64,000 nt of DNA from Fodinisporobacter ferrooxydans (GTDB lineage: Bacteria > Bacillota > Bacilli > Tumebacillales > MYW30-H2): the NCBI RefSeq assembly GCF_022818495.1, contig NZ_CP089291.1, forward strand, positions 1-64,000. The letters are read 5' to 3'. Position 1 is the stretch's first letter. Every line of letters starts with the position of its first letter. A model generated the notes under the pieces. That model had not been told where the DNA came from. It saw only the letters and a program-made list of their open reading frames with translations, and did not search any database. A program made the translations under genes and the position numbers. Positions 36,183 through 56,709 of the stretch are shown in pieces.

Positions 36183-37004
36183 TTAAGCAACTTTGCGATA
36201 GGTCGCCCAGCCTTCGTTCATGATCTTTGTCTCGATTTGCGGCCAAAAATATAACATTTCATCCCGCAAGATGGATAAGACATCCCGTTCCCATTCCTGC
36301 AATGCCTTGCTGTGTTCGATCAGGAACAACATAATGTCTTTTTGCGGAAACGGCGGGAATTTGGAAATGGAACGTTCGCCAGTATTAGTTTCTGCGTTTT
36401 TTTCCTTTTTCGTTCCGATGCTCCAAATGTCATCATAGGGTGTTTTGCTATCGACTCTCTCGCTTATTCTTGGTTTATCCAAATCCCTTGGCCGAGTTCT
36501 TCTTGCAAACGTCGGGTCTACATGTTCCTGAATCGCCATGCCTGCATCCAAGAACTCCTCGACCGCCGGCTTGCCGTATTCGATCTCATACGATCGAATC
36601 CTGTCGGCACTCACCGCCATGCTCTCTATCATGTAGCGGGAAGTGCCCGCAAACATCGCGTTGTTTTTGAAGAAATCGCAGTGTGCAAGTACGTGTGCGG
36701 ATACGAGCTTATTTTGAATCAATGTATTGCCATCCAAAAGAAAGGCATAACACGGATTCGAGTTGAATACAAGCTCATAGATACGGCTTAACCCAAAATC
36801 GTACTGCATTTTCATTCGATGGAAAGCCTTCCCGAAACTCCAGTGGCTAAACCTTGTGGGCATTGCATATGCGCCAAACGTATATAATACATCGGCTGGA
36901 CAGATTTCAAACCGCATATCGTAGTAATCCAATCCAAAGTCATGAGCAATCTTCATCATTTGTTCAATAGAAATTTCCAATTGTTGCATTTCGTCCTTGG
37001 TCAT
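36183..37004 (-). CDS. spoVR: spoVR, 5' segment (N-terminal ~268 residues)
   Basis: This is the N-terminal half of SpoVR, starting MTKDEMQQLEISIEQMMKIA behind GGGAGGT. It covers typical SpoVR sequence (FGAYAMPTRFSHWSFGKAFH, NPCYAFLLDGNTLIQNKLV, AHCDFFKNNAMF) up to NEGWATY. Past the core repeat the reading frame enters element DNA and stops after four foreign residues (RKVA). The remaining 206 residues lie at 15830-16469. In the present arrangement only a truncated 273-residue protein could be made. It begins 12 bp after the yhbH stop, so the two genes form one transcription unit. Confidence 0.95.
   Translation of the reverse strand: MTKDEMQQLEISIEQMMKIAHDFGLDYYDMRFEICPADVLYTFGAYAMPTRFSHWSFGKAFHRMKMQYDFGLSRIYELVFNSNPCYAFLLDGNTLIQNKLVSAHVLAHCDFFKNNAMFAGTSRYMIESMAVSADRIRSYEIEYGKPAVEEFLDAGMAIQEHVDPTFARRTRPRDLDKPRISERVDSKTPYDDIWSIGTKKEKNAETNTGERSISKFPPFPQKDIMLFLIEHSKALQEWERDVLSILRDEMLYFWPQIETKIMNEGWATYRKVA
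36199..36219. repeat. Right core attachment repeat (21 bp)
   Basis: Identical over 21 bp to 16449-16469 and in direct orientation. It marks the other junction of the spoVR element and codes for NEGWATY in the spoVR 5' segment. Confidence 0.95.
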
Positions 37005-37016: not shown

Positions 37017-37172
37017 CTACGACGCCCGTTCAGAATCTTTTACAAAGAACGTTCGCAGCGCTTTATAGACTTCCGTTTTTTCTTTGATGACAGCATATTT
37101 GAATTTGGGATCATCAATCTGTTTAAACGCATTCATCAATGTAGACGAACGGTTGTATTGGTATAGCTCTCC
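37017..37172 (-). pseudogene. yhbH: yhbH, 3' end only (about 51 codons)
   Basis: Immediately upstream of spoVR a frame ends ...EVYKALRTFFVKDSERAS. The readable part begins GELYQYNRSSTLMNAFKQID and matches my recollection of the C-terminus of the DUF444 sporulation protein YhbH. Homology stops abruptly at the GEL codons. Upstream the frame reads unrelated residues back to an in-frame stop after about a dozen codons, and prophage genes start at 37198. The N-terminal ~330 residues are not in the window. YhbH and SpoVR are commonly encoded together, often with the PrkA kinase, so this is the authentic neighbour interrupted by the prophage. Confidence 0.8.
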
Positions 37173-37197
37173 ATGATGTATACATATCTTTATAACT

Positions 37198-37665
37198 TTA
37201 TAGTCGAATCACTCGATACGGACCACGTGCGAAAAAAGTAAAACCAGATGCAACCTCACAAATGACTTGTTTATCTTGCAGTCCAAGTATTAAAAGTGCT
37301 GCAGTCGTATGTGCTATCGGTCGATTTAACGAAAATGATAATTCATCTAGCTCACTCCATTCTTCTTGAGAAAACCGCATATGAAGTCTTACATTATATT
37401 CACTGTTTAATAGAATTATTTCATCCAAATTTCTGTGATCAGTATGCCCACACCAAATACTGCGATCCCTCGAATAATCTCGAAAAAAGTAAGGGCCCAG
37501 CTTTCCGATAATTTCGTTTGTATTAAAAGAAGTCATTACGACTTTTCTTGCCGTTTCTCCATCAAAATCACGAATGTAATTTGCGAGATCATGAACAAAC
37601 TTGTGAACCCATTCCGGACAATACGGGGAAATCTGCGGTTTTTTATTTCTCCTCCACCCTTTCAT
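37198..37665 (-). CDS. Hypothetical prophage protein with ribbon-helix-helix-like segment
   Basis: A 155-residue protein of unknown family at the very end of the prophage. Residues about 94-130 (VRLHMRFSQEEWSELDELSF followed by NRPIAHTTAALLILG) have the strand-helix-helix pattern of ribbon-helix-helix DNA-binding domains. The gene ends 26 bp from the yhbH junction. A terminal position and a DNA-binding motif would suit a regulator or recombination accessory factor; this is inference. Confidence 0.6.
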   Translation of the reverse strand: MKGWRRNKKPQISPYCPEWVHKFVHDLANYIRDFDGETARKVVMTSFNTNEIIGKLGPYFFRDYSRDRSIWCGHTDHRNLDEIILLNSEYNVRLHMRFSQEEWSELDELSFSLNRPIAHTTAALLILGLQDKQVICEVASGFTFFARGPYRVIRL

Positions 37666-37770
37666 TACTCACCATCTCCTCTCATTATTTTGAAACAATC
37701 CCAGGTACCCAGTAGCACAGTACCACTTTGTTTTCGGGGAAGTAGGGAACGGTTGTTTGGTTTCGATATT

Positions 37771-37801
37771 GTTTAAAACTGGTTTAAAACAAATCTAAAA
37801 C
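37771..37801. repeat. Three 11-bp-spaced iterons (parC-like)
   Basis: GTTTAAAAC at 37771 and 37782 and the variant ATCTAAAAC at 37793 are spaced exactly 11 bp apart, one helical turn. They directly follow the parR-like stop codon. A fourth copy in inverse orientation lies at 38941-38949 before parM. Such phased repeats are typical centromere or operator sites of ParR proteins. Confidence 0.6.
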
Positions 37802-38112
37802 TAAAAGAATGCTTCGGCTGAATCGAATTCTCCCTTTCCTTCGGTTAGTTCCATTACAGAATCAGTTTCAGGTGTTACTGGAACTAATGGTATAGTAGGA
37901 CTTTCTAGCATTGTTGGTCGTGTACGTAGGCTATCAAGCCAACGTTTTGCCGCACCACTGAAGTTCACCATGCTGCTTGCTAGTTCAAACAGTTCAAGTT
38001 GATACGGATCCCTAATGTTGAACGTAACGGCAAGACTTACGATTTCGCAGTTCTCACTTCTTTTTTGTGTTTTTAATCCCTTATTGCGCTTGCCTTGCAG
38101 ATTCAATTGCAT
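37801..38112 (-). CDS. ParR-like DNA-binding partition adaptor
   Basis: A 103-residue protein. A basic N-terminus (KRNKGLKTQKR) leads into SLAVTFNIRDPYQLELFELA then FSGAAKRWLDSL, a ribbon-helix-helix arrangement like that of plasmid ParR proteins. The C-terminal tail is acidic and proline-rich, suitable for contacting the actin-like filament. It overlaps the parM-like gene by 32 bp and is followed by phased repeats that could be its centromere. Confidence 0.7.
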   Translation of the reverse strand: MQLNLQGKRNKGLKTQKRSENCEIVSLAVTFNIRDPYQLELFELASSMVNFSGAAKRWLDSLRTRPTMLESPTIPLVPVTPETDSVMELTEGKGEFDSAEAFF

Positions 38113-38899
38113 TCACCCCTGCTTCCCGGAATGCCCAGGCATTCGCATATAATGCATCATGATACGCTTCAACGTCCGATGTATATTGCCGAAAATAATC
38201 GGATAAAACACTTGCTTTACCACCAATCAAAATGATTGGAGAAAGTGACCCGAGACGTTTACTTAACTCTGCGACCGTCATCCGAGCAAACATCGATGAA
38301 TTAATTTCCACCGTATCTAATCCATAGTCCAGGCTTCCACTCAATCGGTTAATCCATTTTCCATACTGGAAGGTTGCATAGTTGACCGTTCGTCCTCCGG
38401 GATCTACTACATGAAAGCGATCCGTTCTGCGTAATGCCCAGCCGAATGTTGCTGCTTCCGCTGCTACTTCCACTCGTACAATGCTAAAGCTTTTTTCTTC
38501 TTGGTTTACCGTGATCGTGTGATCCCCCAGTAGGAGCTGCTTCAGTCGCAATTTTTCACCGGCTGTATGATTTTCAATCGGCTCACCCGTAACTAGAAAG
38601 ATAGAACTTCTGTCAGGCACCACTCGGTGCAATGCCGTTAAAACAAAAATCTTCGTATCCAAGTGAACCTTACTTTTAATCATCATCTGCGTGCCGTCCG
38701 GGCTTTCGATCTTTGCAATACCGCCGACATAGTACTGTTGACCGGCATAATCAACGACCATATCCGTTCGAGAAAGTTCCACTTCTAACTTTGGTTTCAG
38801 ATACGCCCCTAAACAAGCAGGAAAATATTCTCTTACACCATCCCCAACTACTTTGATTCCGTTTCTGCCGGCATCCACGCCTACAATCATAAGAGCCAT
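38081..38899 (-). CDS. ParM/Alp-type actin-like partition protein
   Basis: A 272-residue actin-fold ATPase. MIVGVDAGRNGIKVVGD is the phosphate-1 motif, HVVDPGGRTVNYA the phosphate-2 motif, and PIILIGGKASVLSDYFRQY the adenosine-binding loop. This order and length fit the ParM/Alp7A group of segregation proteins that polymerise and push DNA copies apart. It is followed in the operon by the ParR-like gene. A GTTTAAAAC copy sits 42 bp upstream of the start, consistent with autoregulation by ParR. Confidence 0.85.
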   Translation of the reverse strand: MALMIVGVDAGRNGIKVVGDGVREYFPACLGAYLKPKLEVELSRTDMVVDYAGQQYYVGGIAKIESPDGTQMMIKSKVHLDTKIFVLTALHRVVPDRSSIFLVTGEPIENHTAGEKLRLKQLLLGDHTITVNQEEKSFSIVRVEVAAEAATFGWALRRTDRFHVVDPGGRTVNYATFQYGKWINRLSGSLDYGLDTVEINSSMFARMTVAELSKRLGSLSPIILIGGKASVLSDYFRQYTSDVEAYHDALYANAWAFREAGVNAIESARQAQ

Positions 38900-38940
38900 A
38901 CTCTCATCCGCCTTTCAGTTTATTGATTGTTTATGAATTA

Positions 38941-38949
38941 GTTTTAAAC
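38941..38949. promoter_or_regulatory. Upstream copy of the partition iteron
   Basis: GTTTTAAAC is the reverse complement of the iteron at 37771. It lies 42 bp before parM in the AT-rich promoter region (38900-39030). Confidence 0.5.
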
Positions 38950-39038
38950 TGTTGATGGTTAAGATATATGACTATACATAAAGAAAATATGACGATATAT
39001 TTTGCAAATGATGTATAAAAATTTATTTAAGTGTCAAT

Positions 39039-39195
39039 AACGATAATGCAGTATCGTTCGAACAAGGAAGATCAGGCCTGTTCATTCCTACATACAGCAC
39101 ACGAATAGAGACGAGTCTCGAGTATTTGACGTGCGCTAAACCTGGTAATGCAGATACTTAGGCTGAAAGTGACGACTTTCGGCCTATTCGTGTGC
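39039..39195. ncRNA. Structured element, copy A (unknown family)
   Basis: About 157 bp folding into a chain of hairpins. Hairpin 1 is AACGATA/TATCGTT (39039-39058). Hairpin 2 is AGGAA/TTCCT (39065-39089). A 10-bp outer stem GCACACGAAT/ATTCGTGTGC (39097-39106 with 39186-39195) encloses GAGA/TCTC (39108-39119), AGTATTTG/CAGATACT (39121-39158) and AGGCTGAAAGT/ACTTTCGGCCT (39160-39185). The same architecture recurs at 43120-43269 with compensatory changes. Conserved unpaired segments are TTCGAACAA, TACATA and GTGCGC-AAACC. The transcribed strand is not certain. I do not recognise it as a named RNA. Confidence 0.55.
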
Positions 39196-39208
39196 AATAA
39201 AAAGACCG

Positions 39209-39397
39209 CTACATTTGCGGCCAAATATCATAAACGGTTAATCCGAGAACTTTTGCGATTGCATAGGCCTTATCTAATAAAGGAACAGATCCGACAATGT
39301 AGGAATGTATAGTATTTCTGTTCACACCGGATTTTTCCGAAAGCCAAGTAATCGTAAATCCTCGTTCCTCTTTGATTTGTTCCAACCGACATTCCAC
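39209..39397 (-). CDS. Small Xre-family transcriptional regulator
   Basis: A 62-residue helix-turn-helix protein (LEQIKEERGFTITWLSEKSG, VNRNTIHSYIVG), consisting of little more than the HTH. I placed the start at GTG 39397 behind GAGGTGG; the longer open frame upstream is non-coding and crosses the divergent promoter region. It is divergent from the small-peptide gene at 39558, with an operator-like palindrome between them. Its stop codon is inside a GGCCGC/GCGGTC hairpin followed by TTTTT, which acts as its terminator. Confidence 0.8.
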   Translation of the reverse strand: MECRLEQIKEERGFTITWLSEKSGVNRNTIHSYIVGSVPLLDKAYAIAKVLGLTVYDIWPQM

Positions 39398-39475
39398 GTC
39401 ATCCACCTCACAAAACTCATTCGTGAAGCGGTCTGTCGAATCCTTTGATGAAGAATGTCGAAAAATAAATAATCG

Positions 39476-39499
39476 AATTGTATCGCTAACAATACAATT
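39476..39499. promoter_or_regulatory. Operator-like palindrome between divergent genes
   Basis: AATTGTAT and ATACAATT form a perfect 8-bp inverted repeat with an 8-bp spacer. It overlaps plausible promoter elements for both the Xre gene and the peptide gene. Confidence 0.5.
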
Positions 39500-39557
39500 A
39501 TATGGTATATTATTCCTAGAGGGTGTGGTAAACACGCTCCCGAAGGGAGGCAAGGTG

Positions 39558-39635
39558 ATGGAGAAGTGGATATTACTTCTTACTGCTGTGATCAACCTGG
39601 TAACTGCCATCGTGAATCTCAGCAGAAAAAAGTAA
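39558..39635 (+). CDS. 25-aa hydrophobic peptide, type I toxin/holin-like
   Basis: The peptide MEKWILLLTAVINLVTAIVN ends in a basic LSRKK tail: one membrane helix plus positive charges. It has a good ribosome site (GGGAGGCAAGGTG). About 40 bp after the stop, a strong GCAGG..GAGGGC/GCCCTC..CTGC hairpin follows. This peptide-plus-hairpin layout is typical of Firmicute type I toxin mRNAs of the TxpA/holin-like toxin kind. An antisense RNA promoter was not identified. Confidence 0.6.
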   Translation: MEKWILLLTAVINLVTAIVNLSRKK

Positions 39636-39672
39636 AGACCCCACCGCTGGCACGGATAGGGTCGAACACAAA

Positions 39673-39703
39673 GGCAGGAACGAGGGCGAAAGCCCTCCCT
39701 GCT
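39673..39703. terminator. Strong hairpin after the 25-aa peptide gene
   Basis: GCAGG-AAC-GAGGGC closes on GCCCTC-C-CTGC with a GAAA tetraloop. A T-rich run follows only weakly, so it may be a stability or antisense-pairing element. Confidence 0.55.
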
Positions 39704-39763
39704 ACCATCATCTTACGCTTATCATACTCTCGATATTCATATAAGTCAAAGGAGCTGTAAACT

Positions 39764-39847
39764 ATGCAAACATTAACGTTTGTCATCAGTGTTGCCGGAC
39801 TTGTTATTTCTATCGTTGCTCTATTTCAAGCTTTGAAAAGGAGGTAA
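39764..39847 (+). CDS. 27-aa hydrophobic peptide
   Basis: The peptide begins MQTLTFVISVAGLVISIVAL, continues FQALK and ends in two arginines. It is one membrane helix with a basic end, similar in design to the 25-aa peptide upstream. AAAGGAGCTG precedes the ATG. The stop codon lies within the ribosome site of the next gene, so the two are translationally coupled. Confidence 0.55.
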   Translation: MQTLTFVISVAGLVISIVALFQALKRR

Positions 39848-39852
39848 TTCGT

Positions 39853-40038
39853 TTGGCAAAGCCTCTGTCATTTCGATTTCCTGATGAGTTTACAACGTTT
39901 CTTCGCACTTGGTCGTTTGTAACAGGTGAGGAACAGCGTGAATTGTTAGAAAAGGCATTTTATGAATATACGGAAAAACATCCCGGGACTAAAGAAAAAG
40001 TGGAACAGATTATAAATGTCATGGACTCCCCAAAGTGA
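39853..40038 (+). CDS. Ribbon-helix-helix-like small protein
   Basis: A 61-residue protein whose SFRFPDEFTTFLRTWSFVTG and following EEQRELLEKAFYEYTEKHP suggest a strand-helix-helix DNA-binding fold. The start is TTG 39853, eight bases after AAGGAGG. It follows the 27-aa membrane peptide with coupled translation, an arrangement that could be a toxin with its regulator; this is unproven. Its stop lies in the downstream terminator. Confidence 0.6.
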   Translation: MAKPLSFRFPDEFTTFLRTWSFVTGEEQRELLEKAFYEYTEKHPGTKEKVEQIINVMDSPK

Positions 40039-40053
40039 TGGGGATTATTTTTT
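40026..40053 (+). terminator. Terminator overlapping the RHH-like gene end
   Basis: TCCCC pairs with GGGGA around eight bases, followed by TTATTTTTT. Confidence 0.7.
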
Positions 40054-40261
40054 ACACAGCTCGACGATTCACCACAGGTACGACTGCTAGTATGTTGTCG
40101 ATGACAAACGTCCGGCTGGCACGCTTCGTGTAGCAGTATGCTTTTATGTAATCATCGCGGATCGACTGCAGCTTTACTTTCCGCTGGCTCATGGCTCCGT
40201 GACGGTCCATGTAGATCATTTCGACGGTTTGGCCGAGACAACGTTGGAGATCTTTGAGCAT
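40052..40261 (-). CDS. Small WYL-domain-like protein
   Basis: A 69-residue protein. VEMIYMDRHGAMSQRKVKLQ and IKAYCYTKRASRTFVIDNI match the core of a WYL-type SH3-beta-barrel, a ligand-sensing module common in phage-linked and defence-linked regulators. Here it stands alone without a helix-turn-helix. The start at 40261 follows GGGGTGATTCT. It is convergent with the RHH-like gene. Confidence 0.6.
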   Translation of the reverse strand: MLKDLQRCLGQTVEMIYMDRHGAMSQRKVKLQSIRDDYIKAYCYTKRASRTFVIDNILAVVPVVNRRAV

Positions 40262-40374
40262 AGAATCACCCCACAATAAGAACATTCGTTCGTATATAGA
40301 TTATTATATGCAAAAGGATCGCCAAAATATACAGTAAGAACTTAGAAAAAACGTAATATATTTGTATATATCTA

Positions 40375-40403
40375 TTGTTATGTTTAAATAGATATGGTAT
40401 AAT
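40375..40403 (+). promoter_or_regulatory. Sigma-A promoter of the 38-aa peptide gene
   Basis: TTGTTA (40375-40380) and TATAAT (40398-40403) are separated by exactly 17 bp, with a TGG just before the -10 element. The peptide start codon lies 25 bp downstream. Confidence 0.7.
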
Positions 40404-40427
40404 AAAATCAGAAAGGGGGGATGAAAA

Positions 40428-40544
40428 TTGAATGTATGGCTAACAACTCTAGGGCTGATACTGGTGATACTCCAGATCCTCAAAACAATCCTAGAGATCC
40501 TTGAAAAACTAAAAGGCCTACCCCGCAAGCGACGCAAAAGGTAA
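40428..40544 (+). CDS. 38-aa hydrophobic peptide with basic tail, type I toxin-like
   Basis: The peptide has a 27-residue leucine/isoleucine-rich helix (MNVWLTTLGLILVILQILKT at its start) and ends LKGLPRKRRKR. It starts at TTG 40428, behind AGAAAGGGGGG. A sigma-A promoter lies just upstream and a perfect long hairpin starts four bases after the stop. Strong promoter, tiny membrane peptide and 3' hairpin together are the signature of a type I toxin gene. The expected antisense RNA is not demonstrated. Confidence 0.62.
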   Translation: MNVWLTTLGLILVILQILKTILEILEKLKGLPRKRRKR

Positions 40545-40548
40545 GCCC

Positions 40549-40583
40549 GGTAAGAATGGGGAGTAGCCCCTCCCCTTCTTACC
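40549..40583. terminator. Long hairpin after the 38-aa peptide gene
   Basis: GGTAAGAA-T-GGGGAG pairs with CTCCCC-TTCTTACC, 14 bp with a single bulge and a six-base loop. Confidence 0.65.
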
Positions 40584-40612
40584 TCCATTATACAACAAGG
40601 AGGATGAAAATT

Positions 40613-40789
40613 ATGCGTTCAAGTGTTATGAATTTTTTTGAAAATATCGGTTGGATTGTTGTATTAGCGATCATTTTAACTGTTTACGTGATCAAGATAC
40701 CGCTATGGTTTCAGATTCTTCTTGTTATCATAGCTGGATTCAGTATATTTGCTACAACAGTATCATTGATTAAACGTTTTCGGAGGTAA
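40613..40789 (+). CDS. 58-aa two-helix membrane protein
   Basis: A small protein with two hydrophobic helices (about 10-28 and 30-49) and a basic KRFRR end. ATG 40613 follows AAGGAGG by eight bases. It begins a plus-strand run with the two HTH genes, with only two bases between its stop and the next start. Its function is unknown; the size and topology would permit a holin or a membrane anchor. Confidence 0.6.
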   Translation: MRSSVMNFFENIGWIVVLAIILTVYVIKIPLWFQILLVIIAGFSIFATTVSLIKRFRR

Positions 40790-40791
40790 CT

Positions 40792-41046
40792 ATGTATTTA
40801 CAGTTTGAAACGAAAGACGAGTTTATCCGATGGATTCAAGAAAACTTGTTAAGCCCCCATGAGGTTTCTGAATACTTGGGGGTTACCCCGCAAGCTGTCA
40901 ATCAGTCCGTGAAAAACGGGAAGCTTGTACCTATTAAGCAGGAACCGAGATTTTCTCTATTTTTAAAGGAAGATGTAGAAAATCGTAAAGAAGAATTACA
41001 AACTTTACGGACAAAATATCGTCCTTGGGAGAGTGATAAGAAATGA
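40792..41046 (+). CDS. Helix-turn-helix protein (excisionase-like), first paralogue
   Basis: An 84-residue protein. LLSPHEVSEYLGVTPQAVNQ then SVKNGKLVPIK is the MerR/HTH_17-type DNA-binding fold used by excisionases and small phage regulators. ATG follows GGAGGTAACT. It shares the layout MxLxFExxxxxxRxIxExxL with the next gene, so the two are tandem duplicates, overlapping by 4 bp. Confidence 0.72.
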   Translation: MYLQFETKDEFIRWIQENLLSPHEVSEYLGVTPQAVNQSVKNGKLVPIKQEPRFSLFLKEDVENRKEELQTLRTKYRPWESDKK

Positions 41047-41255
41047 GACTGCATTTTGAATCAGAAGAGGACTTGCGCCGGTATATTGCCGAGCAAGTCC
41101 TCACGACAACAGAGGTAACAGAAATGCTCGGTGTAACCAGGCAAATGGTGAATAAGCTCGTAAAAGGTGATAAACTACATCCTTTTAAAAGCAGCGGAGC
41201 CATAAGCTTATTTTTTAAAACAGATGTGGAGAAGTATCTTAAAAGTAAAGGATAA
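41043..41255 (+). CDS. Helix-turn-helix protein (excisionase-like), second paralogue
   Basis: A 70-residue protein with VLTTTEVTEMLGVTRQMVNK then LVKGDKLHPFK, the same fold as its upstream neighbour. The 4-bp ATGA overlap couples translation. A rho-independent terminator overlaps its end. Confidence 0.72.
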   Translation: MRLHFESEEDLRRYIAEQVLTTTEVTEMLGVTRQMVNKLVKGDKLHPFKSSGAISLFFKTDVEKYLKSKG

Positions 41256-41286
41256 CCCGGGATTGTCGCACCGGGGTTTTTCTTTT
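41254..41286 (+). terminator. Terminator of the plus-strand regulator block
   Basis: AACCCGG pairs with CCGGGGTT around ten bases, with TTTTTCTTTT following. Confidence 0.8.
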
Positions 41287-41398
41287 AATTGAATGGTTCT
41301 GCCACATGTCTGTAGATCAGGAACTGTGATCATGGCTGGCTTTGGTCGTGGGGAACGCTTGGGCGTAGAAACCGGATTAGAGGCTACTACTATCAAGA

Positions 41399-41428
41399 AA
41401 GGCTGGCACATGATAGAGTGCCAGCCTT
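41399..41428 (-). terminator. Hairpin after the 67-aa gene
   Basis: AAGGCTGGCAC pairs perfectly with GTGCCAGCCTT, and on the minus strand TTTCTT follows. The rest of 41287-41503 shows no convincing gene. Confidence 0.5.
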
Positions 41429-41503
41429 CCGAATCTATGTAAAAATCTATCACCGCGACGATTGTAACGATTCAGGAGTATTTAATTTTAAAACTTCTGT
41501 TTT

Positions 41504-41707
41504 CTACTGTTGAGAGGAGTCATCCTCTTCCTGATTAATCATTTCAGATTCTTTCTGCTGCTTTGATTCCTTAATTTTTTTTATACGCTCTTGGTACCTT
41601 CTGTTCTCTTCCTCAGTTACCTCAAAGCAAAAAGCATGAAGCCCTTTGTCTTTAGCATATAAAATCGTTCCGTTTTTAAGCCGAATATAAGGTGTATATA
41701 TTTTCAT
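41504..41707 (-). CDS. 67-aa hypothetical prophage protein
   Basis: The product begins MKIYTPYIRLKNGTILYAKD, followed by a charged, glutamine/glutamate-rich helical C-terminus. I chose ATG 41707 behind AAAGG rather than the earlier in-frame start. I do not recognise the family. Confidence 0.55.
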   Translation of the reverse strand: MKIYTPYIRLKNGTILYAKDKGLHAFCFEVTEEENRRYQERIKKIKESKQQKESEMINQEEDDSSQQ

Positions 41708-41835
41708 TTTATCAGCGACCTTTCGCATTTTGAGTATAAAACTCTTGCGAGAAGGCCAACATAGTGATACATTAAAAGCGACCAAACTTTTAGTATGTAG
41801 CGGTGATTCACTATGCTTTTACAGCCGCTAAACAG

Positions 41836-41872
41836 CCGTAGGCCCCCTGCAAGGTCTACGGATTTTTATTTT
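41836..41872 (+). terminator. Plus-strand hairpin with T run, no plus-strand gene upstream
   Basis: CCGTAGGCC pairs with GGTCTACGG around CCCCTGCAA-type loop bases, followed by ATTTTTATTTT. It may limit readthrough or end a short unannotated RNA. Confidence 0.5.
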
Positions 41873-41917
41873 CCGCATTACGACCACCCTTTCTTAAGTT
41901 AAGAATACTCCGTTTAA

Positions 41918-42367
41918 TTAAGCTGTTTGAGTAAAGTTTTCGGAATTAACATAGTCTTCAACAATAGTGTAAGTTCCCCTATTTTCACCACGCTGAAATC
42001 TCGGATCCCTAGATAAATAGCTCAATAGATTTTGCTTTTTATCTTTCCCAGGTATTGTGTATCCTCTTACTGTTAGGAAATCTAAAATCTCTGTATAGTG
42101 CAATGGGCATGGTGAACCTTTGAGTATTTCGCAAATGGCATTTTTGATTTGTTCAGCATCTGATTTTCGTTCAATAGTTGCTGCAACTTCATTTTTTGCG
42201 GACTCCTCAGACTCTAAAAACATGGTCAATCCTTGGATTTTTTGTTGTAAAACTTGATATTCACGCTGTTTTTGAAGTATCTCTTCTTGGATTCGCGCAG
42301 TCTCTTTCCGCAGCTCTTCTAACTCCACCCCACATTGGTCAATAAAACCAACTAACTCCTTTCCCAT
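41918..42367 (-). CDS. Coiled-coil protein with HARE-HTH-like domain
   Basis: A 149-residue protein. Residues about 10-55 form a coiled coil (ELRKETARIQEEILQKQREY). The C-terminal ICEILKGSPCPLHYTEILDF and following FLTVRGY...RDPRFQRGENRGTY match the HARE-type winged helix seen in restriction, RNA polymerase delta and chromatin proteins. ATG 42367 has AAGGAGGAG upstream. A DNA-binding or base-modification-sensing role is possible, not shown. Confidence 0.65.
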   Translation of the reverse strand: MGKELVGFIDQCGVELEELRKETARIQEEILQKQREYQVLQQKIQGLTMFLESEESAKNEVAATIERKSDAEQIKNAICEILKGSPCPLHYTEILDFLTVRGYTIPGKDKKQNLLSYLSRDPRFQRGENRGTYTIVEDYVNSENFTQTA

Positions 42368-42546
42368 GGTATTCTCCTCCTTAAAATGCAGTACATCATC
42401 TTTTTCTATTTGTCTACATGATAAATCTACCATATTAATAACAGGTTTGCAAGAGTGTTATTTACACAAAGGTTAATAACATGTCATATACATTATATTT
42501 GTGCTAACTAAATGTTTATTAAAATGGAATGTAACCAATTAGTTTA

Positions 42547-42570
42547 CCCCGGCATTACGCCGGGGTTTGT
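42547..42570 (+). terminator. CCCCGGC/GCCGGGG hairpin at the end of the holin-like gene
   Basis: A perfect 7-bp stem with a 5-base loop; T-rich sequence follows on the plus strand. It overlaps the minus-strand stop codon. Confidence 0.5.
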
Positions 42571-43052
42571 TGTGTTTGCGGTGCTTGCAATTCTGCCGTA
42601 AAAGCATCGGCCGCTTTAACGAGTGGCGAATCTGCGATAGCATCCGATGCCTGCTGCGCTAGTTCCAACGCCTTTTCGATTTCATCTTTCGTAACGTTAT
42701 ACTTATTCGCCAATGCGCTCTGCACGTAAAAAACTAGCGCCTTCTTCTGATCGTCGCTCAAATCCTTTAAGTCCTTTTCCGTGTAGTTCAACGCCTCTGC
42801 CGCCAGTCTACCTAATTCGGACTTTTTCAAATCGTCCATCACGCCACTTAACTTATGCTCCAGCTCCGTCTTGACGGCCGCAATCGCCGGTATTTTCACC
42901 GCGTCCTCCGCTACAACAGCGACATCTTTCGCTACTTCCTTGATTACGCCAAAATTCAGCTTGCCTTTGCGTGCCAAACCTACAATACCGCTTACTGCAA
43001 GTCCTGCTGCTACAACGTCATTGATTAACTGTGTGTAATCGTACATGTTCAT
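42555..43052 (-). CDS. Putative holin (LLH-type) of the lysis cassette
   Basis: A 165-residue protein. The N-terminus (YDYTQLINDVVAAGLAVSGI) is a single hydrophobic segment, followed by a long alanine/lysine/glutamate-rich helical region and a QAPQTQQTPA tail. This pattern and the position directly after the amidase suggest a holin of the LLH kind. The identification is positional and moderate. Confidence 0.5.
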   Translation of the reverse strand: MNMYDYTQLINDVVAAGLAVSGIVGLARKGKLNFGVIKEVAKDVAVVAEDAVKIPAIAAVKTELEHKLSGVMDDLKKSELGRLAAEALNYTEKDLKDLSDDQKKALVFYVQSALANKYNVTKDEIEKALELAQQASDAIADSPLVKAADAFTAELQAPQTQQTPA

Positions 43053-43080
43053 TTCTCCTCTCGAATTTTAGTTGAAATTT

Positions 43081-43107
43081 TAAAAAGCCCCGTGAATAAC
43101 GAGGCTA
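43081..43107 (-). terminator. Terminator after structured element B
   Basis: On the minus strand AGCCTCG pairs with CGGGGCT, followed by TTTTTAAAATTT. It lies just after element B and before the holin-like gene. Confidence 0.7.
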
Positions 43108-43119
43108 AAACTTGGCAAT

Positions 43120-43269
43120 ACTTGTTAATGCAAGTTCGAACAAAGTAATCTGGCCGGCTTACTTACATAGCACACGAATGAGACATGTCTCGTGGTATTT
43201 TGAGTGCGCCAAACCGGAAAAGCAAAATACTTTAGGCTGAAAGTGACGACTTTCGGCCTGTTCGTGTTG
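43120..43269. ncRNA. Structured element, copy B (unknown family)
   Basis: The second copy of the element at 39039-39195. Hairpin 1 is ACTTG/CAAGT (43120-43135). Hairpin 2 is AAGTAA/TTACTT (43143-43164). The outer stem ACACGAA/TTCGTGT (43172-43267) encloses GAGA/TCTC, GTATTTTG/CAAAATAC (43195-43230) and AGGCTGAAAGT/ACTTTCGGCCT (43234-43259). Stem sequences differ from copy A while pairing is kept. It ends two bases from the amidase stop codon. On the minus strand it is followed by a terminator, which favours minus-strand transcription here. Confidence 0.55.
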
Positions 43270-43270
43270 G

Positions 43271-43939
43271 TTACTGTTTTGGAATTCCTGTTGCACCACG
43301 TAATGCGTCAGCTGCAAAGTGTGCTGCTTCTTGAACTTTCGGATCGTTTGTTGCGTTATATACGGCACCTAGAATATTGACAACTTTTTGCGCTGCGTCC
43401 TTGTCCAACATTGCCACAACCTCCATTAGCTTGTATTTTGCGGTTACATCACTAACCACATCTGTCCACGATTTGCCGTGTGAAGCCAGGTATTCAATCG
43501 GATCGGTATGGTCTGTTTCTTTCCACAAATCTGATACTTGTTTATGGCTGAGTATCGTGACACCGTCAACCACTCCAAGTTTGAGATCAAACAACTTCCT
43601 AGCTGCCAACCATATCCAACGGTCATACGCTGCTGCAAATTTCACGCTGTCAGCTGTTTGCGTCAACTCGAAACCTAAAAAACGTTGATTGGCGGTATAC
43701 GCGGCATGCCAAGCGATATAGTTAAAGTCTGCCGTCTGCAATATTTGTGTGTCATCCACAAACGCATGGACAAATGCGTCCTGCCAATGGTTTGTTTCGT
43801 AATTCCGTTCGCCATTCGCCGTGTCGTTGTAGACGGCTGTGGCGTGCATAACCACACCCTCGTATTGCCCAACACCGTTACGATACGGATTTTTCGGCAG
43901 GCCGGGAATCAGATTAACGTTTATTGTGTACTGGTTCAC
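43271..43939 (-). CDS. Endolysin: N-acetylmuramoyl-L-alanine amidase (Amidase_2)
   Basis: A 222-residue zinc amidase. The PGRP/Amidase_2 domain occupies about 20-165. Its zinc ligands are likely His32 in VVMHATAV and the histidine in TDHTDPIEYL, with VHAFVDD, IAWHAAYTANQRFLGFEL and ILSHKQVSD as surrounding motifs. The enzyme cuts the amide between N-acetylmuramate and the stem peptide. The C-terminal 60 residues are helical and probably bind the wall. It overlaps the HNH-like gene by 4 bp and precedes the holin-like gene. Confidence 0.88.
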   Translation of the reverse strand: MNQYTINVNLIPGLPKNPYRNGVGQYEGVVMHATAVYNDTANGERNYETNHWQDAFVHAFVDDTQILQTADFNYIAWHAAYTANQRFLGFELTQTADSVKFAAAYDRWIWLAARKLFDLKLGVVDGVTILSHKQVSDLWKETDHTDPIEYLASHGKSWTDVVSDVTAKYKLMEVVAMLDKDAAQKVVNILGAVYNATNDPKVQEAAHFAADALRGATGIPKQ

Positions 43940-44436
43940 TGTTGTTCACCTTCCCTTACTGTTTCTGTCGCTTGCTGGAGTGTTTCACCAGACTGCGGAA
44001 CCGCATCGACACCTCGTTTCGCAAGCTTCTGTATCAGCCATACAGGAAACGTCAGCTCATGGATGCCAGTTCCGCTTCCACCATTTTCATGATCGACACC
44101 TGTATGATGTTCTTGGCAAAGCACCATCATGTTACGAATGTCGTCAACTGATGTAATCGGCTGATTTTTGAGCAATCGGCCATAACCGTAAACATCAAAT
44201 GTCTCCACAAAGTCTTTCAATTTGTCATAATCCCCGATGTTCGCTAGGCTCCATTCAAGTCCTACGTGATGGACTTGTAAATTTTCCGTTGATCCACAAA
44301 CCCAACATTTGAAATGGCCATCTACCTTTAGTCGTCGTTTAGAACGCCTAAACTCAGCAGATTCAGTCCTGTTTACGTGATCTGGTACAATTACAGTCTC
44401 TTTAAGCGTTCTATTCATTACGTGTTCGTTTACCAT
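43936..44436 (-). CDS. HNH-like protein in the lysis region
   Basis: A 166-residue protein. CWVCGSTENLQVHHVGLEW and MMVLCQEHHTGVDH supply two CxxC/CxxH zinc ligands and the HH pair of an HNH-type nuclease. A helical tail follows. ATG 44436 is preceded by GGGGGTGATCGTC, and the gene overlaps its upstream neighbour by 26 bp. Whether it is a catalytically active phage HNH enzyme or a structural zinc protein is unclear. Confidence 0.65.
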   Translation of the reverse strand: MVNEHVMNRTLKETVIVPDHVNRTESAEFRRSKRRLKVDGHFKCWVCGSTENLQVHHVGLEWSLANIGDYDKLKDFVETFDVYGYGRLLKNQPITSVDDIRNMMVLCQEHHTGVDHENGGSGTGIHELTFPVWLIQKLAKRGVDAVPQSGETLQQATETVREGEQQ

Positions 44437-44776
44437 GACGATCACCCCCAACATGAAGTGCGTGTAATTCGGACATCATGGAATGAGCACCTTGTAAAAG
44501 TTCCATCGTTGCATCGTGAGTTTCTTGTGCTCGTTTTTCTTGCGCCTCGAATATAGCTTGATTCTTTTGCTCTGCTTTCTTCGCTAAAACAAGAGCGCCC
44601 ACTGCGAGTGCAGGGAGCGCTATAAGTTGGCAAAAATTCGACCAATATAAAATTTGATTCATGTATTGTGGCCACTTAAGTGGTGTTAATCCATAAATCA
44701 CGAATAGATAAAAACACCACATCGTCTGAAATCCGAGTGTCATTTTTAAAGCTAACCAATTGTTGAATTTTTTCAT
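44411..44776 (-). CDS. Two-helix membrane protein of the lysis region
   Basis: A 121-residue protein with helices at about 12-30 and 46-66 (LIALPALAVGALVLA), followed by a glutamine/glutamate-rich coiled-coil tail. A holin or antiholin role is plausible from position only. Confidence 0.5.
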   Translation of the reverse strand: MKKFNNWLALKMTLGFQTMWCFYLFVIYGLTPLKWPQYMNQILYWSNFCQLIALPALAVGALVLAKKAEQKNQAIFEAQEKRAQETHDATMELLQGAHSMMSELHALHVGGDRHGKRTRNE

Positions 44777-44788
44777 GCAATCACCTCT

Positions 44789-45106
44789 TTAAAAGTGAAA
44801 AAAGTGACCCAGAGCAATATAAACAAGAACAGACGAAATAGCCCAAAAAGCTCGCTCCCAGACATGTTCCCATTTGCTGTGCGACTCTTTTTCCGAATCT
44901 TTCACACTGTCTTTTAGTTTTTCAAATTCGTCTTCCATAGCATCCAGACGTTTATGAGCTGAGCGCGTGGATTGCAATGCCTCCTTGGCTATGTCCCTGG
45001 CTTCATTCGCTGTATCTGACACACCCTTGATGGCTTTCACTTCCGTTTCAAGTCTTGCTACAGCTTCCAAAATTTTGAGCAATAAACTACGATCTTCATC
45101 CGGCAT
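44789..45106 (-). CDS. XhlA-like lysis-associated protein
   Basis: A 105-residue protein with a long heptad region (ILEAVARLETEVKAIKGVSD to EKLKDSVKDSEKE) and one C-terminal helix (AFWAISSVLVYIALGHFF). This layout is that of XhlA from PBSX-type prophages, which assists lysis at the membrane. The start is at 45106, with AGGTG upstream. Confidence 0.65.
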   Translation of the reverse strand: MPDEDRSLLLKILEAVARLETEVKAIKGVSDTANEARDIAKEALQSTRSAHKRLDAMEDEFEKLKDSVKDSEKESHSKWEHVWERAFWAISSVLVYIALGHFFHF

Positions 45107-45163
45107 CACCCTACACACCTACTTTGCGACAAAATAAAAAAGCCTACTTTTCAGCGGCTTACG

Positions 45164-45634
45164 TTAGTAATTTCCTATTTTCTTGAGTAATTTTGATTCT
45201 GCCAGATCTCGTGGTGTAGGATACTTGATGCCAGGGCAAAGATCAATTCCGGCAGACTTGTAAGCGTCTGCCCACAGTGTGGAGCAGATACGCGCCTGTG
45301 GCGGTTCTCGGTACGGGATCATGGTGTGTAACAGATAACGGATCGCTTCCCAACCAATCAAGAGGTAATCGTACCGGCTGCCGACTTCGTTTGTAACGTA
45401 TTGCAAAATTTTATCTCTCTGGAAGTCTGACATGTTTTCACATCGGTATACATCTGCATGGCTGGAATAAAAGTCAAGCGCTTGGTATCCTGTTTTGCGG
45501 AATCCTTGCGCTTCGATCAACTCATTTTCTTTTACAATTCCAGCAACGTGTGAATATGAACTGCTTGTGATATCTTCAATCGATCGGTCAAGAAAGCTTG
45601 TACCTCGTACGAATATGAGATCCGCTAGTTTCAT
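45164..45634 (-). CDS. Permuted papain-like (YiiX/NlpC-P60 superfamily) cysteine hydrolase
   Basis: A 156-residue protein. MKLADLIFVRG, then SSYSHVAGIVKENELIEA with the catalytic histidine, and ARICSTLWADAYKSAGIDL with the likely catalytic cysteine, give the circularly permuted His-before-Cys order of YiiX-type hydrolases. Members cleave amide or thioester bonds in peptidoglycan or lipids. It lies between tail-fibre and lysis genes, so a role in wall penetration or release is plausible. Confidence 0.72.
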   Translation of the reverse strand: MKLADLIFVRGTSFLDRSIEDITSSSYSHVAGIVKENELIEAQGFRKTGYQALDFYSSHADVYRCENMSDFQRDKILQYVTNEVGSRYDYLLIGWEAIRYLLHTMIPYREPPQARICSTLWADAYKSAGIDLCPGIKYPTPRDLAESKLLKKIGNY

Positions 45635-45637
45635 AGG

Positions 45638-46471
45638 TTACATCACCGTCACAGTCACGGGTGTGCATTGCTGGCTCTCATTGCCGTCTGAATCCACCGC
45701 ACTCACCGCCACACTGTACACATGCCCGCTCGTCAGTCCGGTTAGCGTGTCGGAATTGGTTACCACGTTTGTTTTCGTGGTTGCTGTATTTGCGGTTGTG
45801 TCCGTCAGATAGAGGTTATAGCTTCCACCGATTTGTACGTCGATTTCACTGTTTGCAGTCCAGTTCGCCGTAATCTGTCCAGCAACTGTTGATGTAGCAG
45901 TTAATCCTGTTGGCGCAGCTGGCGGTGTGGTATCGTTCCATACAAGAGACTGCACGGTCGGGATATCCGGTGATGCATTGACTTGCGCTATTTTGTTGTC
46001 AAACTTAGTTGTTCTGTTTACATCAAACGTTTCGAAGTCGTCCAATACCTGAAAAAATTGTGTTCTCGTATGAAGCACAGGCTTACCGTCTTCGATCGTT
46101 TTGAAATATACAGTGCTTTTGTTTGGATTTGCAGCTAGCAGATTTACATAATACTGCATATTTTGGACTGCTCCCGCGTCCGCTGGATAGGTTTTTAGAA
46201 CACCTAAAGCGGATGATTGGAATGTGGTAAATGATTCTGCGAAAGCGGTTTGGAACTCTGTTGTTTTTTCTTGATTCCAATCGTTAATTGATTTCAAGTT
46301 TGCAACCGCTTGGTTGAACTGATCTTGTGTTGCTGATTTCCATGATGGGCGGATGGTTGCTGTATCTTTTAGGTAACAAGTATATGTGCCATCTTTGTTG
46401 TCAATGGCTTGAATCAAATCATGGTAATCTATATCGAGCAGTCCACTGTTAATAGAGACAATTTGATACAT
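45638..46471 (-). CDS. Tail-associated protein with fibronectin type III domain
   Basis: A 277-residue protein. The first ~185 residues are unrecognised and contain a DQFNQAVANLKSINDW helix region. Residues about 187-275 form a fibronectin type III domain (PPAAPTGLTATSTVAGQITA, then DSDGNES). Such domains decorate phage tails and fibres and bind carbohydrates weakly. It follows the fibre gene by three bases. Confidence 0.7.
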   Translation of the reverse strand: MYQIVSINSGLLDIDYHDLIQAIDNKDGTYTCYLKDTATIRPSWKSATQDQFNQAVANLKSINDWNQEKTTEFQTAFAESFTTFQSSALGVLKTYPADAGAVQNMQYYVNLLAANPNKSTVYFKTIEDGKPVLHTRTQFFQVLDDFETFDVNRTTKFDNKIAQVNASPDIPTVQSLVWNDTTPPAAPTGLTATSTVAGQITANWTANSEIDVQIGGSYNLYLTDTTANTATTKTNVVTNSDTLTGLTSGHVYSVAVSAVDSDGNESQQCTPVTVTVM

Positions 46472-46473
46472 GA

Positions 46474-48783
46474 TTAGACCTCCTTCGCATAAGCATAGAA
46501 TATAGTTGTGGCATAGGAAGAATTTGAAGTGTAAATATTAATTTGTAGGGATGATGTGAAATCCCAAAACATACCAGCTGGGCTCCAACCTGAACTGTTA
46601 CTACTGAATGCTAATGTATTAAGTGCAGCATCAGTATATTTAGATGTTGCAACAGTTACACCGTCAATTATAATTTCTGATGCAGTATATGCATCACCAG
46701 CAAGACCAAGCAACCTTCCCTTACCTGTAACCGACAGTGCTGTTACATAGGTCGTTGAGGTTGTACTAAACGATGCAACAGGTTGTGTTTGTAGATTACT
46801 TGTCATAAGTTTCCACGCTCCCCATGTTCCTCCTTTTTGTAATCGATAGTAAACATTATCTACAGAGGCATTTAATGTCGTTGCTCTTTGCAGACAAAAT
46901 CCATCGGTGTTTACATGCCTAATCACTTCGATGTAAAACCAATCTATAGTATCCCCGTTTGGTGCATTGGTGAGATTATTTCCGTTGTAGAAGCCCGTTG
47001 TCGTTAACGTATTTAAATCCGTGCCGGCTATACCTGTTGCTCCACCATCGGTGTTGAATGTAACCGCATCTAAACCTCGGAATAAATCTGCATCTAATCC
47101 GCTTCCTGCACCGTCGTTCGAACTATCCCATAATTTTGCGTCGATTCCGTCACTGCCCATAGTTCGCATACTGCCATCTTGATGTAGATACATAGCTTTA
47201 GCATAGTAGCCTTCTCGATGAAACCCGATAATAGGTGAACTCCCATCGTTTGTAACAACTTCGATATTTCCTTGTGCATACGAAGCTGAACTTAATGCTG
47301 TATTGTTTTTCCCTATTTGCAACTGGTCCGCTAATCTTGACGTCATCAGCGCTCCAATAACTAAGTCAGAAAAAGTTGAACCGTTAGTTTGTGCGGGATT
47401 AGGAAGATTATTATTGTCCCAAACTACATGTCCATTTTGTTGCAACGTTGTTGCATTAAGTATTGCATTAACCGTCTGATTCGCCGTAAACGTATTTGCT
47501 TGATCTTTCCTTGCGGCATTCTGATAAACAGGATCCGTCGTAGCAACCGCAACAGGATTTTGACCGCTTACAGGTGCGGTGGAGACTTGGACTTTACCTG
47601 GTGTTGTTGTGGATGCTAACGGAACTACAGGTACATTCCCCAGTTGTGATGCGGGCACATTTCCGGTTGCATCCAGTGTGGCGACTCCGTTGGCTGCGGC
47701 TTCCGCAGTTGTCGGAATTGCCCCCACCTGGGATGCTGTGATTCCGGTTAATTGCGAACCGTCGCCGATGAACTTCGATGCTTGTACGTTGTTTTGAAAC
47801 TTTACATTACCAATTGCACCTGTTAGCAAATTCACAGTAGTTGGTCTCTTATCAGTTACTGTCGATATATTACCACTTGCATCCGTAGTCACTTGGCAGA
47901 TCGGCACATATCCCGCCTTGGTGCTATGTGCTGTCCCCCAGCTTGTTGTTCCATCGCTGTTATAGTCTAGATAGTACGTTGTATTTGCAACAGACGTAAC
48001 GAACTGCCCATTCTGTGATGCGGCAAAGTTTACATGCTGACCGCCGCTAAAGTAGACATCGGCTGCGGTAACGTCGAGTTGATTAGCTACAGTGCCATCT
48101 TTGGTTGCTACTCCACCCGATAGGACGACGGACGTGTTGCCGAATAAGTCTTGAACGAACAGGGAATCCACTGAATACAAATTGGTGCTAAGTGTTCCAT
48201 CCGGTGCAACCAGTACACTGGAACTTCCTTTTACAACACCAGCTTTTGATATTGTGGCAGGATTCAAGCCTGATCCATCACCAGAGAAATAAGATCCCGT
48301 TGTGTTTATGGTAGGCATAACCGTGACCAGAGCGGAATCTGCGATGGTGTCTGTCCAACTCGTTGTTGTGTTGTCATTGATTTGCACAAGTTGATAATAG
48401 GTGCTTCCGTTTGCTTTCGTGCGATAAATGACACGGGCAACTACACCTATACCACCAACAGGAATGCTTGTAAGATTCACTTGTTGAGCGGATGGAGAAA
48501 CTGTGTTACTTGTGGTTCCTCCGCTTGTATTACCTTGCGTGTGAATCGTTCCGGTTCCCGCTGGCCCCTGCCAATAGCCCGTTAAAAGAGCAACCTTATA
48601 CTGATAAGATCCAGTAAGGTTGCCTGATGATGTGTTTATTGCTGCTGATAAAGCGCCTGGCGGACTTATTTGTGCGAATGCTTGGATGACGCCAACGTCA
48701 TTGTTTCCGGATAATGCATCGATGATTTGGTTTAAGTCTGTTTGATTGCCGGATGTTAAATTTGTAACATCATACAAAGCCAT
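46474..48783 (-). CDS. Tail fibre / receptor-binding protein
   Basis: A 769-residue protein rich in serine, threonine, glycine and asparagine. The N-terminal ~160 residues (ALYDVTNLTSGNQTDLNQII) presumably attach to the baseplate. The centre holds fibre-like repeats of KFQNNVQASKFIGDGSQLTG type. Residues about 590-670 contain NTLTTTGFYNGNNLTNAPNG and YYRLQKGGTWGAWKLM, a pyocin-knob-like receptor-binding module. The last ~90 residues are a beta-rich tip domain. It likely determines host range. Confidence 0.82.
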   Translation of the reverse strand: MALYDVTNLTSGNQTDLNQIIDALSGNNDVGVIQAFAQISPPGALSAAINTSSGNLTGSYQYKVALLTGYWQGPAGTGTIHTQGNTSGGTTSNTVSPSAQQVNLTSIPVGGIGVVARVIYRTKANGSTYYQLVQINDNTTTSWTDTIADSALVTVMPTINTTGSYFSGDGSGLNPATISKAGVVKGSSSVLVAPDGTLSTNLYSVDSLFVQDLFGNTSVVLSGGVATKDGTVANQLDVTAADVYFSGGQHVNFAASQNGQFVTSVANTTYYLDYNSDGTTSWGTAHSTKAGYVPICQVTTDASGNISTVTDKRPTTVNLLTGAIGNVKFQNNVQASKFIGDGSQLTGITASQVGAIPTTAEAAANGVATLDATGNVPASQLGNVPVVPLASTTTPGKVQVSTAPVSGQNPVAVATTDPVYQNAARKDQANTFTANQTVNAILNATTLQQNGHVVWDNNNLPNPAQTNGSTFSDLVIGALMTSRLADQLQIGKNNTALSSASYAQGNIEVVTNDGSSPIIGFHREGYYAKAMYLHQDGSMRTMGSDGIDAKLWDSSNDGAGSGLDADLFRGLDAVTFNTDGGATGIAGTDLNTLTTTGFYNGNNLTNAPNGDTIDWFYIEVIRHVNTDGFCLQRATTLNASVDNVYYRLQKGGTWGAWKLMTSNLQTQPVASFSTTSTTYVTALSVTGKGRLLGLAGDAYTASEIIIDGVTVATSKYTDAALNTLAFSSNSSGWSPAGMFWDFTSSLQINIYTSNSSYATTIFYAYAKEV

Positions 48784-48801
48784 ATAATTACCACCACCTT
48801 A

Positions 48802-49284
48802 TTAACTAAAAGTGACTTCCCACTTAACTGTAATCATCTGCGTTGATGTTGGTGTAAACGCCGATCCGAATATCACGTGAAACCAAGGATTTCCGTTTAC
48901 ATCTGTCATAAGCGCTTCCGTTACTTGTGTCGTAACTTGACCAGCAGGAAACTGGAAGATGAATGTTGTTGTTCCGCTTGATGGAGAATTTGCATTTGCA
49001 ACATTCACATTTGCGGTTCCGTTAGATATTGCCGCAAACAAAGCTTCATCTGTTTTTGCTGGCGTCCCAGACCCACTACCTAAAGAGCATTTACTTGGAG
49101 GATATACAGGCTGATAACCGGAATTATTAAATCCCGCAATCCACTGACTTAAAGCGGAAAGTGCATAATTCAATTCAATGTTGTGACGTGAAAAAGACTG
49201 TTCTTCTCCTGTGTTTATATCTGTCAAAGTAACAGTCACGTTGTCCATGATATGTACGCCTTGGCGTATTTTCTGTTTTACCAC
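48802..49284 (-). CDS. Baseplate/tail-fibre-associated protein
   Basis: A 160-residue beta-rich protein ending PWFHVIFGSAFTPTSTQMIT then VKWEVTFS. I placed the start at GTG 49284 behind GGGGGGAATTTAC, overlapping the previous stop. The family is not recognised; position between the gpI-like protein and the fibre suggests a connector. Confidence 0.55.
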   Translation of the reverse strand: MVKQKIRQGVHIMDNVTVTLTDINTGEEQSFSRHNIELNYALSALSQWIAGFNNSGYQPVYPPSKCSLGSGSGTPAKTDEALFAAISNGTANVNVANANSPSSGTTTFIFQFPAGQVTTQVTEALMTDVNGNPWFHVIFGSAFTPTSTQMITVKWEVTFS

Positions 49285-50096
49285 GTAAATTCCCCCCAGG
49301 TAAAATTCCCCCAAGTCCAAGGAGTTGTATTGAGCGTTACGCTTATGGTGTCGCTGAGTGATATTCCATCCGTTAATGTTCCTGATAAAATGATATTTGC
49401 AATCGTTCCTGCAGCTTGCAAAAGACTCACAATATTATCAAGCTGACTTAGTGAATAAACAAATCCTTGTGGCGGTGAATTCGGTAAAGTCACATTTACA
49501 TCGAATGTGTATAGGCTTGCATCATCCGACACGGTTGCGTTATATCCTAAGTCCAATAAAACTTGTTCAATTGCTAGGTTGTTTACACGTGGCGCAAGCG
49601 ACAAATCAAAAATGCGAATCGCATACAATTGGTCCGGCTCACCATCTAATCGTGTAATATCAAAAAATTCACCAAAGGAATCAAGCCACGATCCATCAGA
49701 AGTATTCAAAATCATTTCAAGCAAGGCTTGATTTTCAGCTCCGAATGCATCTACCATAGCAAGCGCGACCGGCTTTAAAAGCTGCCAAAGGAACGATGTA
49801 AACATCGGAATATTCATCGGCAGTGAGTATATACCATCGATCAATACCGCTGCTGAAAGTGTTGAAACTTGAATTAAGGTTGCTGAAAAACCAGATTGTG
49901 AATTAATAGCTTGGACCAATGAACCCAGCGTATAAGACCGAAGATTATATTGGGCTGATGATGGTCCTGTAAGTTGTAATACATTGTTCTGTATAATTGC
50001 TTGTCCATTCGTAGCGCTGATTGAAATTGCTGGTACCGATTGCGGATCTTTGTTAATGCCGGGATGAAGGTTATTCAATATTTGTCTTAACATCAT
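49278..50096 (-). CDS. Tail protein I-like baseplate component
   Basis: A 272-residue protein downstream of the baseplate J gene. Segments such as NQALLEMILNTSDGSWLDSF then GEFFDITRLDGE, and LYAIRIFDLSLAPRVNNLAI, recall P2 gpI/YmfQ-like proteins that link baseplate wedges to fibres. The C-terminus has aromatic repeats TWGNFTWGEFTW. Confidence 0.6.
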   Translation of the reverse strand: MMLRQILNNLHPGINKDPQSVPAISISATNGQAIIQNNVLQLTGPSSAQYNLRSYTLGSLVQAINSQSGFSATLIQVSTLSAAVLIDGIYSLPMNIPMFTSFLWQLLKPVALAMVDAFGAENQALLEMILNTSDGSWLDSFGEFFDITRLDGEPDQLYAIRIFDLSLAPRVNNLAIEQVLLDLGYNATVSDDASLYTFDVNVTLPNSPPQGFVYSLSQLDNIVSLLQAAGTIANIILSGTLTDGISLSDTISVTLNTTPWTWGNFTWGEFTW

Positions 50097-50104
50097 TCAT
50101 CCTC

Positions 50105-51217: not shown

Positions 51218-51219
51218 TA

Positions 51220-52514: not shown

Positions 52515-52526
52515 GTATCAACACCC

Positions 52527-53288: not shown

Positions 53289-53306
53289 TTTTCAATCACC
53301 ACCGAT

Positions 53307-55576: not shown

Positions 55577-55597
55577 TTGTTTTCACCCCTTTCAATA

Positions 55598-55626
55598 CAA
55601 AAGCACCCTCGCATTCGAGAGTGCTA
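55598..55626 (-). terminator. Terminator after the GNAT gene
   Basis: On the minus strand AGCACTCTCG pairs with CGAGGGTGCT around four bases, followed by TTTTG. It is nearly the same sequence as the hairpin at 56546-56573. Confidence 0.75.
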
Positions 55627-56157: not shown

Positions 56158-56166
56158 AAATGAACC

Positions 56167-56573: not shown

Positions 56574-56593
56574 ATGTTATATTTATTTTAGGT

Positions 56594-56651: not shown

Positions 56652-56709
56652 TAATAAAAGGTTTTTAAAGCGATTCAGACATTGAGTCATAGATACTTTC
56701 TCCCTTCCG

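Follow-up and report, generated by a model that had tools for sequence, protein, structure and literature searches.

We identified a large prophage (79,725 bp core to core) within the sporulation gene yhbH of Fodinisporobacter ferrooxydans, which is probably excised from the mother-cell chromosome during sporulation so that the gene is rejoined. Both parts of yhbH are present on the single 4.86 Mb contig of this genome (completeness estimate 100%). The window analysed here is a stretch of 64,000 nucleotides, which includes the 3' part of the gene and part of the prophage.

Two parts of yhbH and a prophage between them

The initial annotation had described an undecayed yhbH fragment of some 51 codons adjoining spoVR. 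Frame and homology bear this out: the minus-strand frame at 37172-37020 reads GELYQYNRSSTLMNAFKQIDDPKFKYAVIKEKTEVYKALRTFFVKDSERAS followed by a stop, and represents the undecayed C-terminal end of YhbH (DUF444, PF04285). The host-derived share is somewhat smaller, because the GEL codons are part of the attP half-site contributed by the phage (Table 1). The 5' part, which had been expected past 64 kb in the same orientation at the far end of the prophage, was indeed located there, 79.7 kb beyond the 3' fragment, on the identical strand and collinear with it. Its frame runs from a start codon at 117896 (MENQRFTLSREDW...) to ...CNLFGYGEVNQYNSP and a stop. A whole-genome search gave one other PF04285 match (G000:C1:116790-117863, minus strand) and neither an intact yhbH nor a further DUF444 gene in the 4.86 Mb genome; an intact copy elsewhere, or a far end lacking the 5' part, had been named as the outcomes that would speak against a split gene, and neither was seen. 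Joining the flanks in silico generated an intact frame for a 384-aa YhbH, with 76% identity to an intact relative over 384 residues, nearly the whole length, and 3 gap positions. Since both halves match intact orthologues end to end, chance is excluded.

Table 1. Features of the split yhbH and spoVR genes and of the prophage (positions in the window; G000:C1 marks positions outside it)
Feature	Position	Strand	Basis or remark
spoVR 3' part	15830-16470	as 5' part	
spoVR 5' part	36183..37004	-	PF04293 positions 3-271
yhbH 3' part, host DNA, ~47 codons, normal stop	37017..37162	-	frame, homology; boundary from attB/attP reconstruction
Crossover core TGGT/ACCA, junction with yhbH 3' part	37159..37162	.	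attB/attP reconstruction
Phage half-site of attP	37163..37181	.	inverted partner at yhbH 5' junction; together ATACATCATGGAGAGCTATACC/AGTATAATTCTCCATGATGTAT
Prophage share inside window	37163..64000	.	phage genes; continues to G000:C1:116887
Phage partition protein	38081..38899	-	PHROG 691, E 2e-36
Endolysin	43271..43939	-	PHROG 2338, E 6e-39
Tail fibre genes	45638..48783	-	PHROGs 1348 and 7389
Baseplate genes	49278..52080	-	PHROGs 6, 7378 and 975
ParB-like nuclease	57151..58212	-	PHROG 12047, E 6e-74
Phage repressor-like regulator	58943..59383	+	PHROG 8/3
Large serine recombinase (LSR)	G000:C1:115307-116857	+	ends ~20 bp from yhbH 5' junction
yhbH 5' part	G000:C1:116868-117896	-	whole-genome search; outside window

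Read along the minus strand, the sequence is GGATATGGTGAAGTGAACCAGTATAATTCTCCATGATGTATCC at the 5' junction and ATACATCATGGAGAGCTATACCAATACAACCGTTCG at the 3' junction. The partner of the ACCA core in the window lies at G000:C1:116884-116887, and the outer flanks, with the crossover in this common ACCA, give GGTGAAGTGAACCAATACAACCG (GYGEVNQYNRSS in frame), placing the insertion point in the codons for GEVNQYN (GYGEVNQYN). Joined in the same way, the inner flanks form a palindrome, ATACATCATGGAGAGCTATACC/AGTATAATTCTCCATGATGTAT, in which 21 of 25 positions are paired and the CA core is the centre. As in phage large serine integrases, inverted half-sites surround a short core common to attB, and judged by sequence the reconstructed sites are the attB/attP pair expected of such an enzyme. 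The end of homology and the prophage boundary, formerly placed at the GEL codons (37172), therefore move to the ACCA core; the attP half-site happens to resemble yhbH at these codons. Of the direct repeat predicted at 37155-37180, the short common core is present, but it is the 4-bp ACCA and not GELYQ, which was rejected as the core because GEL is phage DNA. A very short common core is expected for serine integrases. An inversion, suggested by an inverted-repeat reading of the junctions, was also rejected: the inverted sequences that match each other are the arms of attP, and the yhbH halves lie on the same strand.

The serine recombinase predicted beside the yhbH 5' part was found there. It contains resolvase (PF00239) and recombinase (PF07508) domains above cut-off and a zinc-ribbon match (PF13408) of 25.1 bits against a cut-off of 25.3, and it matches the PHROG 95 integrase. 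The DNA beyond the break had been taken for a prophage, in agreement with its phage gene matches: the element has genes for terminase, portal, major head protein, tail sheath, baseplate, tail fibres and endolysin, as well as a DnaC-like helicase loader, a RecE-like exonuclease and repressor-like and antirepressor-like genes. The set of terminase, portal, head, sheath and baseplate genes indicates a myovirus-type prophage. Two transposase genes inside it (G000:C1 68004-69302 and 94387-95652) suggest some decay and make the viability of the phage uncertain.

The neighbouring spoVR is also split, by a separate element. A direct repeat of 21 bp, GAACGAAGGCTGGGCGACCTA, occurs in both of its halves (at 16449 and at 36199), and the 19.7 kb between them contain an LSR (26231-27682) located 8-10 kb from either end. 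The cargo of this element includes a gamma-glutamyltranspeptidase gene, a DUF1275 gene and an apparent oligopeptide transport operon. Two split neighbours might raise the suspicion that a rearrangement or an assembly artefact divided yhbH. This explanation is extremely improbable given the complete single-contig assembly, the exact att architecture, the integrase at the junction and the occurrence of breaks in the same codons in unrelated assemblies.

Recurrent insertion into yhbH

yhbH is a recurrent insertion target. Sampling at class level covered 399 genomes, of which 263 had DUF444, and the same codons (GYGEVNQYN) were split in nine other genomes (G004, G006, G116, G160, G235, G244, G275, G289 and G365), in each of which an LSR related to the window's converges on the yhbH 5' part; this count is a lower bound, as outliers alone were inspected. 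A search for the 3' halves located them in eight of the nine (that of G006 was not found), and wherever both halves were on one contig their orientation was identical. The spacing was ~3.9 kb (G244), 8.2 kb (G235), 25 kb (G275), 47 kb (G116), 58 kb (G365) or 131 kb (G289), and the halves were on separate contigs in G004 and G160. In the junctions read, the overlap lay in or adjoining AAYCA. G004 also has a second DUF444 gene, intact but divergent (G004:C130, L018).

A second site (DTSGS/MGxFEKY), at which the window's yhbH is uncut, was cut in at least eight genomes (G116, G175, G217, G226, G244, G275, G289 and G369). The LSR of these elements adjoins the yhbH 3' part, and the five second-site LSRs included in our tree formed one branch apart from the window's family. 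Both insertions were present in G116, G275, G289 and G244 (loci L030, L031, L036 and L041/L042), leaving yhbH in three pieces. The cargo of two second-site elements is host-like: the element of G226 (L037 1981-6934) contains an aconitase, with another aconitase elsewhere in that genome, and the element of G369 (L035 1713-10328) contains a RecQ helicase, a GGDEF protein and a permease.

Some elements at the window's site are small. The 3.9 kb and 8.2 kb elements of G244 and G235 retain an LSR, accompanied in G244 by a permease gene. In G235 (L034 1895-10106), gerA, gerC and gerB-type germination genes and a glutamate-synthase-like gene are also present, and reading of the gene content revealed no recognisable phage gene; the G235 genome has 7 GerA matches. 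The split yhbH 5' fragments of relatives had dN/dS values of 0.01-0.15, which describe these relatives and not the window locus and may partly predate the insertions. Because dN/dS is low and some elements are only 4-8 kb long, split yhbH is probably rejoined; such values, together with small LSR-bearing elements, would fit selection for rejoining, part of which could be older than the insertions. The size of these elements also bears on a reversible lysogenic switch, in which excision of the phage under stress restores yhbH and control lies in phage induction and not in development. The integrase is intact, repressor-like and antirepressor-like genes are present, and SP-beta responds to stress as well as to sporulation (PMC6957869). 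However, elements of 3.9 and 8.2 kb leave no room for a phage induction circuit, and excision in response to stress only would be selectively odd for a known sporulation gene, which makes such a switch improbable.

When the LSR alignment was scanned against named genomes and viral contigs, many more loci adjoining yhbH were detected. Split genes occurred, for example, in Alicyclobacillus contaminans, A. tolerans, Sulfoacidibacillus thermotolerans and Ferroacidibacillus organovorans, and also in Anaerobacillus alkalilacustris, Brevibacillus reuszeri and several MAGs. In Geobacillus jurassicus and Anoxybacillus voinovskiensis, the yhbH 5' part passed, next to the integrase, into a 3' end that was complete yet different, and the same state was seen in Neobacillus, Metabacillus, Lihuaxuella, Aneurinibacillus and others. 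At such restored loci (L083, L073, L072, L086, L102, L113 and L079), a second yhbH 3' end was located 33-66 kb off where both were on one contig. We read this as prophages that supply a replacement yhbH 3' end at the LSR flank, which would leave yhbH whole after integration. In an LSR tree built by a quick method, with split and restored states assigned from reading frames, the window's LSR belonged to an 18-row clade whose every member was at a split yhbH (SH-aLRT 97); the sister clade mixed split, restored and other loci.

On balance, we lean slightly towards a broader view in which yhbH of spore-formers is a general docking gene with two sites for serine-integrase elements, those at the window's site either splitting or restoring the gene, lineages switching between these states and host sporulation being made dependent on the element. 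If so, the split state would mean that the host relies on excision for YhbH, and the gene-restoring state that the 3' end is phage-borne. As lineages switch states, splitting could evolve to make host sporulation depend on the element.

Sporulation and excision

For B. subtilis, a published listing places both yhbH and spoVR under sigma-E (PMC3416734), and binding of SpoIIID close to yhbH is described (PMC517825). We propose that a temperate, myovirus-like prophage of 79.7 kb would have been inserted by its own large serine integrase at an attB within the yhbH coding region, leaving the 5' part of the gene beside the integrase and the 3' part beside spoVR. During sporulation, the integrase and a directionality factor would excise the prophage from the mother-cell chromosome and rejoin yhbH, which in B. 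subtilis is a mother-cell gene under sigma-E. In the forespore, the chromosome would retain the prophage, which would thereby be inherited, a working mode like those of SP-beta/spsM and skin/sigK.

We scanned for sigma-E promoters upstream of 26 LSRs at split yhbH genes, and the best scores were not above those of control LSRs (Mann-Whitney p = 0.23). Upstream of the window's LSR there is a CATACATT box, but its -35 partner scores poorly (12 of 15, shuffle p 0.13), and for this reason we make no sigma-E claim for this gene. Inspection for an RDF recognised none. Probable mother-cell excision is therefore our inference from the precedents of SP-beta and skin and from the comparative evidence.

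The same promoter and RDF results would suit an ordinary lysogen, for which yhbH was merely the attB and is knocked out, with excision being rare or limited to phage induction and sporulation proceeding without YhbH. The prophage looks largely complete and may thus be recent, and YhbH may be dispensable. We consider this unlikely: two sites are hit recurrently by separate LSR families, some LSR-bearing elements are too small for phages, and split fragments have low dN/dS, all of which points to selected rejoining in such elements. Excision during sporulation, with rejoining of yhbH, is the reading we retain.

Comparison with known intervening elements

Known or proposed sites of intervening elements include sigK, spsM, spoVFB, spoVR, gerE, kamA and yabG (PMC4191935, PMC6957869, PMC5595907, PMC10747680, PMC13141910). 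The initial annotation knew of no description of yhbH as such a site, and we found no report of one in the openly accessible literature searched. YhbH has been named among prophage proteins of P. larvae in a paper that does not discuss insertion (PMC9341999). Three features of a sporulation-gene intervening element are present here: the halves are collinear and in the same orientation, precise excision would restore the frame, and the element has its own recombinase by the att site. yhbH would extend the small group of genes for which rebuilding through DNA excision in development is known or suspected, and a second split gene, spoVR, adjoins it. Recurrent insertion across many families opens the question of why phages occupy mother-cell genes to comparison and testing, and phages with related integrases that either split or restore the gene allow selection for splitting to be examined as a natural experiment.

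SP-beta in spsM of B. subtilis 168 (PMC4191935) is likewise a large prophage with phage genes and a serine integrase at the element end, which splits a mother-cell sporulation gene and is excised with precise rejoining (here in silico). Its target is spsM and not yhbH, and mother-cell excision and the RDF SprB have been shown for SP-beta, whereas here they are inferred. The skin element in sigK (B. subtilis, C. difficile) and the MMB025 prophage in sigK of Alicyclobacillus (PMC13141910) have a very short core and split a sporulation gene, as found here; skin uses a serine recombinase, and MMB025 is likewise a largely complete phage. Both differ in target, and skin is defective as a phage. As far as the account cited in PMC4191935 goes, vrin in spoVR of Geobacillus thermoglucosidasius involves the same neighbourhood and the same logic, but the prophage described here is in yhbH, and spoVR of the window's genome is split by the separate 19.7 kb element. 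The gin element in gerE of B. cereus (PMC5595907) is resembled by the small non-phage elements in split yhbH of G235 and G244; it contains three recombinases, in contrast to the window's element, which has a single LSR at the junction and phage genes. yhbH is therefore best placed beside skin, SP-beta/spsM and vrin/spoVR as a new target gene, probably repaired by ejection of the virus in sporulation.
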